Source of the DNA: Croceivirga sp. | Lineage (GTDB): Bacteria > Bacteroidota > Bacteroidia > Flavobacteriales > Flavobacteriaceae | NCBI GenBank assembly: GCA_028284665.1 | Contig: JANQRG010000009.1 | Span: 1 to 55,320, forward strand | Length of the DNA stretch: 55,320 bases | Reading direction: 5' to 3' | Shown: piece after piece, positions 53,070 to 55,320 of the stretch | Layout of the letters: every line of letters begins with the position of its first letter | Position numbering within the stretch: the stretch's first letter is position 1 | Position numbers and translations under genes: made by a program | The notes under the pieces: generated by a model | The model's database searches: none | What the model saw: only the letters and a program-made list of their open reading frames with translations | Told to the model about the DNA's origin: nothing

Positions 53070-53708
53070 CTATTCTTCTGCAGGCGCTTCAGCTGCTGGA
53101 GCTTCACCGCCCTCAGCTACTGCACCTTCTTCTTCCTCTTCCTCTTCCTCATCTTCCACCACATTTCGTGAGGCTTTGACTTGTACTACGGTAATGTTAT
53201 CCGGATGCATGATGGTAAAGTCACCGGTTCTCAAGGTGTCAACGGCTATTTTACCCCCGATTCTTAATTTGTTAATGTTTACCGTTATTTCATCAGGTAA
53301 AAGCTCGGGCAACGCCTTGACGGAGAGTTTTCTTTTGCGGAACAAAAGGCGACCACCGTTTCGCACCCCTGGAGAGTTCCCTTCCAGACGTACCGGGATA
53401 TTCATGGTTACCGGCTTGTCCTTAAATAGTTGGTAAAAATCTACATGAAGAATTTTATCTGTAACAGGATGGAATTGAATATCCTGTAGTACGGCTTCAA
53501 ATGTTTCACCGTTTTCCAATTCAATTACTGCTGTATACGCATTTGGGGTATACACCAGTTCTTTGAATGATAGCTCATCTGCTGAAAAGTGCATTGGCGT
53601 TTCCCCTCCGTACAACACGCAAGGGACCTTTCCAGCATTGCGTAAGGCCTTGGTAGCTACCTTGCCCACGCTTTCTCTTTGGGATCCTTTGATTGTAATT
53701 GACTTCAT
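53070..53708 (-). CDS. rplY: 50S ribosomal protein L25 (CTC family)
   Basis: L25 binds 5S rRNA. The 212-residue long form has the L25 N-terminal domain ([34 protein letters not shown], then [21 protein letters not shown]) and the CTC-type C-terminal domain. The tail is very acidic and Ala-rich (residues about 180-212: [16 protein letters not shown]). The general stress protein CTC is the same family. It lies 75 bp after prs on the same strand, and a terminator follows. Confidence 0.95.
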
Positions 53709-53763
53709 TTTTTCAATTAAATAGTATTACTAATTTTTATCGAATTGCCCAGAACTTATTTTA

Positions 53764-53785
53764 AGCCTGAGCGTAGTCGAAGGCT
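53764..53785. repeat. 22-bp palindromic repeat overlapping the prs stop
   Basis: AGCCT (53764-53768) and AGGCT (53781-53785) enclose GAGCGTAGTCGA. It overlaps the end of prs (stop 53784-53786). The string GAGCGTAGTCGA resembles a short interspersed repeat type common in flavobacteria, as I recall. Confidence 0.5.
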
Positions 53786-54725
53786 ACATTATGAATTTAG
53801 AAGATATTGAGGTGTTATGATGCACCCTGTGCATCACATCGGCAAATAGTTCCGCACAACCCAATACCCTTATTTTTTTACTGTTTTCAATACTAGGAAT
53901 AGAGTCTGTGATGATCAATTCCTGCAATTTAGATTGTTCTATGCGTTCGTACGCTTTTCCCGATAATAGCCCATGGGTAGTTAATGCCCGAACACTTTTA
54001 GCTCCCCGTTCCATCATCAAATCTGCTGCTTTGGTCAAGGTTCCTGCAGTGTCCACTAAATCGTCAACCAATACCACATTCTTGCCCTTAACTTCCCCAA
54101 TCAATTCCATTTTAGCAATGACATTGGCTTTTGCGCGTTGCTTGTAACAAATCACAACATCGCTCGCTAAGGCTTTGGAATACGCGTAAGCGCGTTTTGA
54201 ACCTCCCATGTCGGGAGATGCGATACAAAGATTATCAAGATTCAGGCTTTGAACATATGGCAAAAACAGGGTAGAAGCGAAGAGGTGGTCCACGGGTTTT
54301 TCAAAAAAGCCCTGGATTTGGTCTGCATGCAAATCCATGGTAATGATCCGGGTGGCTCCCGCCGTCTCCAACATTTTAGCTACCAGTTTAGCTGCAATTG
54401 GGACCCGCGGTTTGTCTTTGCGATCTTGCCGGGCCCAACCAAAGTAGGGCATAACAGCGGTGATGTGCCGTGCCGAAGCTCTTTTTGCAGCGTCGAGCAT
54501 GAGTAACATCTCCATGAGGTTTTCCGGACCAGGGTTAGTGGATCCTATGATAAAAATACGGGCTCCCCGTATAGATTCTTCGAAGGAGGGCTGAAATTCT
54601 CCATCGCTGTATCTGGAAAATTTGATCTTCCCGAGATCTGCTCCGTAAGCAGCTGCGATCTTTTCACCCAAAATAGTACTTTGGGTGCAAGCGAAAATCT
54701 TCGGTTCAGGAACTTGATACGGCAT
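53784..54725 (-). CDS. prs: Ribose-phosphate pyrophosphokinase
   Basis: Prs makes PRPP from ribose 5-phosphate and ATP, for purine, pyrimidine, NAD, His and Trp synthesis. The 313-residue protein has the expected motifs: FACTQSTILGEKIAAAYG (about 9-26), RQDRKDKPRVPIAAKLVAK (about 100-118), DLHADQIQGFF (about 131-141), and the PRPP-binding VVLVDDLVDTAGTL (about 223-236). I start at MPYQVPEP (54725); the longer frame to 54803 would run through its own promoter. The order prs-rplY-pth is conserved in many bacteria. Confidence 0.96.
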   Translation of the reverse strand: MPYQVPEPKIFACTQSTILGEKIAAAYGADLGKIKFSRYSDGEFQPSFEESIRGARIFIIGSTNPGPENLMEMLLMLDAAKRASARHITAVMPYFGWARQDRKDKPRVPIAAKLVAKMLETAGATRIITMDLHADQIQGFFEKPVDHLFASTLFLPYVQSLNLDNLCIASPDMGGSKRAYAYSKALASDVVICYKQRAKANVIAKMELIGEVKGKNVVLVDDLVDTAGTLTKAADLMMERGAKSVRALTTHGLLSGKAYERIEQSKLQELIITDSIPSIENSKKIRVLGCAELFADVMHRVHHNTSISSKFIM

Positions 54726-54742
54726 TTTAAATCTTTCCAGTG

Positions 54743-54763
54743 ATGGCCTATCGAATAGGCTAT
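54743..54763. promoter_or_regulatory. Hairpin in the prs leader
   Basis: GCCTAT (54746-54751), CGA loop and ATAGGC (54755-54760) are perfect, extended by A-T, T-A and one G-T pair to nine pairs. It is inside the predicted 44-nt leader, between transcription and translation starts. A leader hairpin at such a distance may affect translation; this is not shown. Confidence 0.35.
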
Positions 54764-54775
54764 TCAAAAGCGGTG

Positions 54776-54804
54776 CAAATTTACACATTAATCCCGGTTG
54801 CAAA
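54776..54804 (-). promoter_or_regulatory. Promoter of prs
   Basis: The minus strand has TTTG (54801-54804), a 17-bp spacer and TAAATTTG (54776-54783), a full consensus match. It fixes the start of prs at 54725. Confidence 0.75.
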
Positions 54805-54827
54805 AGGATTATTGTAGGTATTTTGGT

Positions 54828-54856
54828 TTTGGGATTGAAATTATTTTTTAGCTTTG
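54828..54856 (+). promoter_or_regulatory. Promoter in front of the broken tRNA-Leu copy
   Basis: TTTG (54828-54831), a 17-bp spacer and TAGCTTTG (54849-54856) match the full consensus. The expected transcript start is about 5 nt before the tRNA remnant. No TAnnTTTG is visible before the intact tRNA at 55222, so this is probably the tRNA-Leu promoter left in place when the unit was inserted. Confidence 0.7.
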
Positions 54857-54875
54857 CAGTCCTATTTGCCGAAGT

Positions 54876-54895
54876 CCTGCCTGCCGGTAGGCAGG
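54876..54895. repeat. 20-bp palindrome 1, inserted in the tRNA remnant
   Basis: CCTGCCTGCCGGTAGGCAGG: 7-bp arms (CCTGCCT / AGGCAGG), after tRNA nucleotide 8 (between the acceptor stem and the D arm). Same family as the units at 54911 and 54931 and the one at 37419. Confidence 0.85.
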
Positions 54896-54910
54896 GGCGG
54901 AATTGGTAGA

Positions 54911-54930
54911 CCTGTCTGCCGACAGGCAGG
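54911..54930. repeat. 20-bp palindrome 2, inserted in the tRNA remnant
   Basis: CCTGTCTGCCGACAGGCAGG, immediately after tRNA nucleotide 23 at the edge of the D stem. Follows the pattern CCTGnCTnCCGnnAGGnAGG. Confidence 0.85.
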
Positions 54931-54950
54931 CCTGACTACCGTTAGGTAGG
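54931..54950. repeat. 20-bp palindrome 3, tandem to palindrome 2
   Basis: CCTGACTACCGTTAGGTAGG, directly adjoining unit 2 without a spacer. It follows the same pattern, with more changes. After it the tRNA sequence resumes with CGCGCTG. Confidence 0.8.
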
Positions 54951-54957
54951 CGCGCTG

Positions 54958-55221
54958 AAATTTTGAATTGATTGTTGTTTATGCCATATCCAGTTTACAG
55001 TTCAACTACATTTATGTGGGAATGACTAAGGATTTGAACGAACGGTTGAAAAGACACAATACTAAAAGGGAGCGCACAACGAGAGCGTATGCTCCTTTTG
55101 AATTATTATATTCAGAAGAGTGTTCAGACAGGCGTCTGGCCAGGGAAAAGGAAAAATATTGGAAGTCAGGCATCGGAAAAGAAAAGCTGAGAAGCTTAAG
55201 AGATGCCCAAAATTAGTGCCA
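54958..55221 (+). mobile_element. Putative GIY-YIG unit inserted in a tRNA-Leu gene
   Basis: The segment between the broken tRNA copy (ends 54957) and the intact tRNA (starts 55222) consists almost only of the small nuclease gene. Together with the downstream 30-nt duplicate of tRNA nucleotides 1-30 it would be a 294-bp unit flanked by 30-nt direct repeats (one now split by palindromes). The end points are set by where the tRNA match begins and ends. No transposase, integrase or terminal inverted repeats are present. A tandem duplication of the tRNA gene followed by decay is the main alternative. Confidence 0.5.
54968..55216 (+). CDS. Small GIY-YIG nuclease-domain protein, between tRNA-Leu copies
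   Basis: This 82-residue protein is a GIY-YIG domain: VVYAISSLQFNYIYVGMTKDLNERLKRHN (Y-x10-YVG, then Arg in ERLKRHN), FELLYSEECSDRRLAREKEKYWKSGIGKEKLR (catalytic Glu in the EK-E-K pattern). Such proteins cut DNA or resemble parts of UvrC and homing endonucleases. The start is TTG at 54968, with a stop (TGA, 54956-54958) formed at the tRNA junction; the first ATG in frame lies inside the domain. The stop (55214-55216) is 5 bp before the intact tRNA. Expression is likely by the promoter at 54828. Confidence 0.8.
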   Translation: MIVVYAISSLQFNYIYVGMTKDLNERLKRHNTKRERTTRAYAPFELLYSEECSDRRLAREKEKYWKSGIGKEKLRSLRDAQN

Positions 55222-55308
55222 GCCGAAGTGGCGGAATTGGTAGACGCGCTGGATTCAAAATCCAGTGGTAGCAATACCGTGTGGGTTCGATTCCCACCTT
55301 CGGTACCA
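55222..55308 (+). tRNA. tRNA-Leu(CAA)
   Basis: This is an 87-nt tRNA with encoded CCA (55306-55308). The acceptor stem is GCCGAAG / CTTCGGT with a G-T pair at position 1. The D arm is GCGGAATTGGTAGACGC; the anticodon arm CTGGA-TTCAAAA-TCCAG has anticodon CAA at 55256-55258 (reads UUG). The long variable arm (GGTA-GCAA-TACC) is typical of type II tRNA-Leu, and the T arm is GTGGG-TTCGATT-CCCAC. All stems pair, so the gene appears functional. It lies 5 bp after the GIY-YIG stop and has no visible promoter of its own. Confidence 0.97.
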
Positions 55309-55320
55309 GGGAAAAGCCGG

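Follow-up and report, generated by a model that had tools for sequence, protein, structure and literature searches.

A small GIY-YIG nuclease gene between a broken and an intact tRNA-Leu(CAA): a probable minimal homing-type element, with related loci at many tRNA genes of Bacteroidota

How can a nuclease gene reside in a tRNA gene that stays complete? The question is raised by the end of a 55,320-nucleotide stretch of Croceivirga sp. DNA (the window; contig JANQRG010000009.1), where an open reading frame (ORF) for a small GIY-YIG protein separates a broken from an intact copy of tRNA-Leu(CAA). The initial annotation, made from the letters, had stated that nucleotides 1-30 of the tRNA recur upstream in three exact blocks and that the ORF starts 10 bp past the last of them. 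Both statements were confirmed, the blocks lying in order within 54868-54957. The features of the locus are as follows.

54843 to 54867, plus strand: original promoter flank of the tRNA gene, now adjoining the broken 5′ piece; the empty sites of the genus have near-identical sequence before their intact tRNA.
54868 to 54875, plus strand: broken tRNA-Leu 5′ piece, nucleotides 1-8, identical to 55222-55229.
54876 to 54895, plus strand: palindrome 1, 20 bp, in the 8/9 linker of the broken piece, found by pattern search.
54896 to 54910, plus strand: broken tRNA-Leu 5′ piece, nucleotides 9-23, identical to 55230-55244.
54911 to 54930, plus strand: palindrome 2, 20 bp, at the D-loop/D-stem boundary; the same 20 bases stand 5′ of 25 of 41 Leu(CAA) ORFs.
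54931 to 54950, plus strand: palindrome 3, 20 bp, tandem to palindrome 2, found by pattern search.
54951 to 54957, plus strand: broken tRNA-Leu 5′ piece, nucleotides 24-30, identical to 55245-55251.
54968 to 55216, plus strand: GIY-YIG nuclease ORF, 82 aa, with a TTG start; PF01541 match, 1.3e-16.
55222 to 55308, plus strand: intact tRNA-Leu(CAA) (ARAGORN; Rfam RF00005), its 5′ part read as the copy brought by the insert from the 354-bp gap against empty sites.

The promoter flank holds TAnnTTTG, which we take to be a -7 motif. When the upstream region was aligned to the tRNA, the score exceeded those of 100 out of 100 shuffles. The palindrome pattern was matched six times in the window (both strands, at most 3 mismatches), always at the three palindromes, with 0.01 matches expected. 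A group I intron was considered and rejected: an Rfam search of 53600-55320 at E <= 1 returned the tRNA alone, and the tRNA is complete and contiguous. No intron was thus found, in keeping with the intron-less arrangement that had been suggested. The window contig (C5) ends 12 bp past the tRNA, and contig C26 begins with the same tRNA (99 identical bases); the two are read as one tRNA at a contig break. Besides these copies, the window tRNA had no further match in its own genome at E <= 1e-10. The assembly of another member of the genus (G009) is likewise broken at its empty tRNA-Leu(CAA) (L103, L112). Mixed alleles or a repeat could underlie such breaks.

According to the initial annotation, the tRNA gene was entered by the nuclease unit, which brought a new 5′ half with it, and comparison with related genomes was to reveal the empty site. 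Eleven genomes of the genus were searched, and all of them carry tRNA-Leu(CAA) or a near relative of it (84-100% identity). The GIY-YIG ORF is present at this tRNA in three (the window genome G000, G006 and G008); in eight, the tRNA is uninterrupted and the element is missing. The window was aligned with four of the empty sites (L102, L105, L106 and L107), and 185-188 of 210 aligned positions, the tRNA included, were identical. Inside the alignment, 354 bp form the sole stretch of more than 5 bases absent from the empty sequence; a 17-base stretch of the empty sequence, further upstream, has no counterpart in the window. The flank 5′ of the broken piece is the one found 5′ of the intact tRNA in the empty genomes. 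Because of these alignments, the shared upstream flank and the differences at other elements, the broken piece is taken as the old half, and the ORF with the second 5′ half as the insert. The uninterrupted sites in species of the same genus thus support the proposed entry.

Similar differences were seen at other tRNA genes of the genus. An element at tRNA-Met is present in G005 and absent from its close sister G007 (prs dS 0.06): G007 lacks 371 bp precisely at the tRNA, with 550 of 604 aligned positions identical, and the other differences are 7 bases just upstream and 67 bases in repeats further downstream. At tRNA-Arg(ACG), the site is empty in G008 and occupied in G000 and G006. Relics, in the form of an ORF tail or a hairpin-bearing piece alone, were recognised by eye in G006, at Ser(UGA), and in G008, at both Ser(UGA) and Met. 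Palindrome-bearing 5′ pieces, also noted by eye, of tRNA-Met on contig 22 of the window genome (L095) and of tRNA-Arg(CCU) near a contig end in G006 (L232) are probably relics as well.

These results suggest that the locus is probably a minimal selfish element of the homing-endonuclease type, made up of one GIY-YIG nuclease ORF and a replacement end for the gene that it enters. The nuclease would cut the uninterrupted target gene, the break would be repaired from a donor allele, and the element would spread between strains. It would survive in essential genes because the missing half is carried along. Several observations count against this reading. The old and new 5′ halves are identical at the window, and the escape of the restored tRNA from the nuclease is left without explanation. 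The 82-aa domain has no added DNA-binding part and is small for a site-specific homing enzyme. The difference between occupied and empty sites is seamless and as such compatible with gain or loss alike.

Recurrence of the arrangement was followed in samples that overlap in part. Close relatives of the window protein, sought in one genome for each of 84,980 species, gave 70 loci. A tRNA gene on the same strand lies within 160 bp in 63 of the 68 distinct ORF clusters of this set, and the remaining five adjoin a contig or locus end. The corresponding counts are 11/16 for the genus, 50/70 for the family and 55/64 for the phylum; the five tRNA-less clusters of the genus belong to a related subfamily with proteins of about 100 aa, and their position away from a tRNA counts against the homing-element reading. 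At E <= 0.001, 87 of 149 family genomes contain a homologue, and profile matches occur in 231 of 392 sampled phylum genomes (E <= 1e-12). The seed profile was built without eleven loci and any with stops. For the family, 29 new loci and 40 fetched regions were looked at; for the phylum, the given loci of that search and 40 fetched regions were looked at. In all, twenty anticodons were found beside ORFs: Leu CAA, CAG, GAG and UAA; Arg ACG, UCG, CCU and UCU; Ala GGC; Pro GGG and UGG; Met CAU; Val UAC; Ser UGA, GGA and GCU; Asn GUU; Cys GCA; Phe GAA; and Gly UCC. The order of tRNA 5′ piece, GIY-YIG gene and complete tRNA, which the initial annotation had asked to be sought elsewhere, is therefore present at many tRNA genes. 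The window locus is a member of a large class that recurs at many tRNA genes and some protein genes across Bacteroidota.

Two forms of the arrangement exist, the one at the window and its mirror image, in which an intact tRNA is followed by the ORF and a broken 3′ piece. The broken piece outscored each of 100 shuffles in 83 of 92 upstream cases (92 of 95 were taken for the test) and in 26 of 40 mirrored cases; the failures, 9 and 14 respectively, count against the homing-element reading. Six duplicate loci (L004, L005, L016, L017, L114 and L118) were left out of the listing of broken pieces, of this test and of the leader and flank comparisons below. The 5′ pieces end at about nucleotide 20 (L003), at about 30-40 in many loci, at 58 (L075) or at about 83 (L344). 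Since the break position varies among loci, the break after nucleotide 30 at the window is not a measured cut site, and a fixed entry point there, as first supposed, is not borne out; mirrored loci retain the 3′ half instead. At L002, L003 and other loci the stop codon of the ORF lies inside the tRNA (distances -10 to -47), and the last nuclease residues are encoded by the tRNA 5′ end.

Clusters with no tRNA within 160 bp (20 of 70 in the family, 9 of 64 in the phylum) also count against the homing-element reading. At L134, L136 and L145, Rfam indicated a tRNA that ARAGORN had missed or that overlaps the ORF. In the fetched stretch of several loci, e.g. L157, L170 and L173, there are tRNA pieces but no complete tRNA. 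Some tRNA-less clusters lie in protein genes, and at others of the family and phylum sets no target was found. Related GIY-YIG ORFs were noted about 350-420 bp downstream of tmRNA genes at L171 and L174. An ORF at L335 that by eye appeared to split an IS200-type transposase was dropped, as Pfam gave no support.

Among protein genes, the seven nearest relatives of one ORF in an epimerase-type gene were inspected (L248-L254). In L248-L252 the ORF stands between a broken 5′ end, closing with TGGAGF or TGGQGF, and a whole gene; in all five the broken end is followed by AACCCRTGAAATRATGR. The closing motif is presumably the Rossmann glycine motif. Pfam searches on two whole-gene starts matched Epimerase at L162, the same place as L248 (1.2e-18), and at L332 (4.5e-6). 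At L254 the whole gene is present and the broken 5′ piece absent, which counts against the homing-element reading. Old and new 5′ ends were compared over nine codons at five of six epimerase/dehydratase loci, L332 having been missed by the pattern, and gave a pS of 0.47 and a pN of 0.056. As the divergence is mostly synonymous, another working gene, not a decaying local copy, is suggested as the source, and the replacement 5′ ends of these loci were probably acquired from such a gene. At the window tRNA both halves are identical and offer no difference from which an origin of the new end could be read.

A 23S-IVP gene is split by the ORF at L155 (the place of L253) and at L328. The split parts match PF05635 at 1-45 and 48-74 in L155 and at 1-47 and 48-91 in L328, i.e. 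on the 106-position profile the two splits nearly coincide, the first part ending at 45 or 47 and the second starting at 48. No restored copy of the gene was found in the stretch viewed at either locus, and the 23S-IVP gene is probably dispensable. That a restored half is found in tRNA genes and none in 23S-IVP genes fits, we infer, a survival of those insertions that repair their target. A further case at L314 was set aside, since the 3′ part alone was matched, and weakly (E 0.021).

The protein itself was analysed for signs of function. Residues Y5, Y16, R26, H30 and E62, which we take to be catalytic by assignment from I-TevI, are all present in the window ORF. In 40 aligned relatives (L073, L078, L085, L086 and L001 of the first list left out, L162 added), Y16, R26, H30, T38, E62 and K66 do not vary, and Y5 hardly does. 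A free-standing nuclease gene with conserved putative catalytic residues is a feature shared with intronless homing endonucleases. The AlphaFold2 model of the 82-aa protein has a pLDDT of 96.8. Its closest folds in Foldseek are the UPF0213 protein BH0048 (1zg2), Slx1 and the I-TevI catalytic domain (probability 0.94-1.00 among the best seven matches), with no match at E <= 0.001. dN/dS of the window ORF is 0.11 to each of two genus relatives, and 0.07-0.26 in 6 of 8 ORF pairs, those with unsaturated dS; the ORF is under purifying selection. Searches against NCBIfam, PHROGs and PADLOC gave weak partial matches only, mostly to homing or intron endonuclease models.

The dead tRNA half carries hairpins, and their placement was counted over one piece per cluster (alignment score at least 34; inserts of at least 10 bases with at least 4 pairs; L004, L005, L016, L017, L114, L118 and seven more duplicates left out). 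In or at the edge of a cloverleaf loop lie 139 of 151 hairpin insertions, where 94.0 are expected for random places, related loci not being independent. Most often the hairpin sits at the 3′ edge of the D-loop in 5′ pieces (53) and in the T-loop in 3′ pieces. Since the hairpin sequences differ between lineages, the hairpin, not its letters, is the rule. Within Leu(CAA) loci the letters are nevertheless often shared: the 20-base palindrome 2 recurs upstream of ORFs from many genera, and 21 of 41 loci have one and the same block running from the end of the D-loop through the palindrome into the D-stem, while the ORFs of loci sharing the block differ at 43-96% of synonymous sites (43 pairs compared). 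Over all comparable loci, gap-tolerant alignments gave a higher similarity for the 100-base leader than for the flank 5′ of it in 90 of 104 pairs, the pairs not being independent. L041-L043 go against this trend (leader 75/90, flank 115/122). In the G000-G006 pair (L001-L019) flank (128/130) and leader (96/100) are conserved to the same degree, which counts against the homing-element reading. The old half had been thought free to decay; given the loop-placed hairpins and the identical D-arm block, this is not plainly so. Repeated re-creation at each insertion could, as an alternative, keep the tRNA-derived part identical. In RNA folding, the window leader exceeded its shuffles in stability (z -3.65; 1 of 200 shuffles was as stable), and four other pieces showed no clear excess (z -0.79 to -1.70).

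The hairpins might make the dead half immune to the nuclease, might act as an operator site, or might reflect passive insertion. In the homing-element reading they are taken to matter and would render the half uncleavable and non-functional as a tRNA, or would act as an operator; autorepression is described for I-TevI (PMC2988022). A wider proposal is offered tentatively, as one that may well fail: a phylum-wide, so far undescribed class of mobile elements of about 350 bp, each an 80-aa GIY-YIG nuclease with half a host gene, would occupy many tRNA genes and conserved protein motifs of Bacteroidota and repair the broken essential gene, the hairpin-tagged dead half being an uncleavable mimic of the target for self-immunity or autorepression.

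The hairpins may instead be passive. Dispersed palindromes of the host would enter hairpin loops in general and be tolerated by the dead half alone, in which case they would be uninformative about the nuclease. We regard this as a serious possibility without favouring it. The palindrome pattern does occur elsewhere in the window genome (10 forward and 5 reverse matches at 11 places, three of them at the window locus, and 0 for a reversed control) and is present in 4 of 11 genus genomes; different lineages have different hairpin families, and nested palindromes were seen by eye at L006 and L007. The excess of loop placement is weak, however: a hairpin-loop score that 10.8% of mismatched flank pairs attain is reached at 6 of 25 genus places, and tRNA pieces make up four of these 25. 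A genome-wide rule of palindromes in hairpin loops was for this reason not adopted. The identical D-loop palindrome upstream of Leu(CAA) ORFs in many genera also speaks against passive entry.

Conservation of ORF and hairpins invites another explanation, in which the nuclease and the hairpin-bearing tRNA half are a functional module of the host, i.e. a regulator, a toxin-antitoxin pair or a defence unit, and the tRNA is merely a convenient promoter site. Purifying selection on the ORF, the identity of the D-arm and hairpin block, the leader that is mostly more conserved than the flank and the loop placement of the hairpins would all be accounted for. The occurrence is patchy between related species, however, and empty sites are seamless; relics exist; and the targets are many and unrelated, protein genes among them. 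Matches to defence models are weak, and the best of them (E 0.0022) is itself to a homing nuclease model. A host module is thus considered unlikely.

Tandem repeats of piece and ORF occur, with two to eight ORFs. The listed ORF identities are 0.88-1.00 at 24 of 26 array loci (for the eight-copy array, ten of the 28 pairs are listed), and the two other loci have unlike ORFs (0.59 and 0.62). The eight-ORF array is at L157, on contig 34 of G144, where the ORFs are spaced by tRNA 3′ pieces with a hairpin of the TCCGCC..GGCGGA type; no complete tRNA was found in the 4.8-kb stretch. In the window genome, the intact tRNA-Ser(UGA) is preceded, in order, by what looks by eye like the tail of a relic ORF, by a Ser piece with a hairpin and by an ORF, a succession that repeated entry into one gene would produce. 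Arrays of near-identical ORFs are also what a local tandem duplication would leave, if a host GIY-YIG gene stood beside a tRNA, the pair was doubled by unequal crossing-over and one of the two tRNAs then lost its function. Such a history agrees with L344, where the dead copy is almost full-length, and with L324, where tRNA-Phe has dead pieces on either side. Empty sites, however, have no ORF beside the tRNA; the old and new ends of the epimerase/dehydratase genes differ mostly at synonymous positions, unlike a decaying local copy; the ORF is also found in 23S-IVP genes, where no duplication is seen; and the arrays fit a secondary amplification. There is little chance that duplication explains the locus. 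As tRNA genes are classical integration sites, a remnant of an integrase-type island with the tRNA as attachment site was also weighed and is most improbable, for the insert, 354 bp in all, encodes a single GIY-YIG protein and no integrase, it is the 5′ half that is duplicated where an island would duplicate the 3′ end, and viral contigs and phage records hold no close relatives at the sensitivity used. Carriage by phages was rejected on the same search, made with the window protein and reaching close relatives.

For the homing-element reading, the closest precedent is that of the mobile ORFs (mORFs) of fungal mitochondria. In Allomyces atp6 and in Glomus atp6, atp9, cox2 and nad3, an endonuclease ORF sits in a gene together with a foreign replacement end, the old end being stranded, and an mORF endonuclease has been shown biochemically to drive mobility (PMC3630166). 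The tRNA and epimerase/dehydratase loci likewise have an ORF, a replacement end and a stranded old end: a duplicated end of the target gene flanks the ORF, and at tRNA-Leu(CAA) and tRNA-Met the gene that it lies in is uninterrupted in relatives (gaps of 354 and 371 bp). The fungal mORFs affect carboxy-terminal ends of protein genes in mitochondria, whereas the Bacteroidota elements are found on bacterial chromosomes, mostly in tRNA genes, with either the 5′ or the 3′ half concerned. The latter have an 82-aa nuclease and hairpins in the dead half, and a hairpin-tagged half is not mentioned for fungal mORFs in the same excerpt (PMC3630166). Seg proteins of T-even phages are free-standing, intronless homing nucleases of the GIY-YIG type, and the Bacteroidota nuclease gene is likewise free-standing and without an intron. 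They differ in that their cut sites are hundreds to thousands of bases away from the gene of the nuclease, and the passages cited do not mention a carried half of the target gene (PMC2988022). Group I introns in tRNA genes are described in the cited extract as selfish DNA, some with a homing nuclease (PMC3984707); unlike them, the window locus has no intron RNA and its tRNA is contiguous. With UPF0213 and Slx1 proteins, which gave the best structural matches, the window protein shares a small GIY-YIG domain. To our knowledge those proteins are not known as mobile and have no tRNA-half architecture. No description of the tRNA elements was found by title or abstract in the open-access literature.

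If the homing-element reading is true, an element of this type can do without intron and intein when it resides in an essential gene on a bacterial chromosome; half the gene suffices. The presence of many small GIY-YIG ORFs across Bacteroidota (profile matches in 231 of 392 genomes of the sample) would be accounted for, pieces of tRNA pseudogenes would be linked to mobile DNA, and the sparing by the nuclease of its own restored target would become testable. Compact nucleases with many natural targets could be of technical use.

Fidelity to the target was examined on a tree of 140 ORFs (one of at least 65 aa per locus; 124 with a target label, eleven of these labels set by hand, and 16 without). 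Changes of target number 32 on the tree, where shuffles gave 70.9 and at least 20 are required. With 85 columns to build on, no more than 12 of the 137 inner branches are starred. ORF families tend to follow particular tRNAs. At the tRNA-Leu(CAA) locus, pS of the neighbouring prs gene is 0.26 (G000-G006), 0.69 (G000-G008) and 0.74 (G006-G008), and that of the ORF, over about 50 synonymous sites, is 0.48, 0.57 and 0.46 for the same pairs. The ORF of G006 is farther from that of G000 and nearer to that of G008 than prs predicts; these conflicting distances, from one locus in three genomes, may reflect lateral exchange there. The tRNA-Arg(ACG) sequence of these three genomes is clearly different from that of eight other genus members, whether occupied or not (L003, L013 and L216 against L217-L224).
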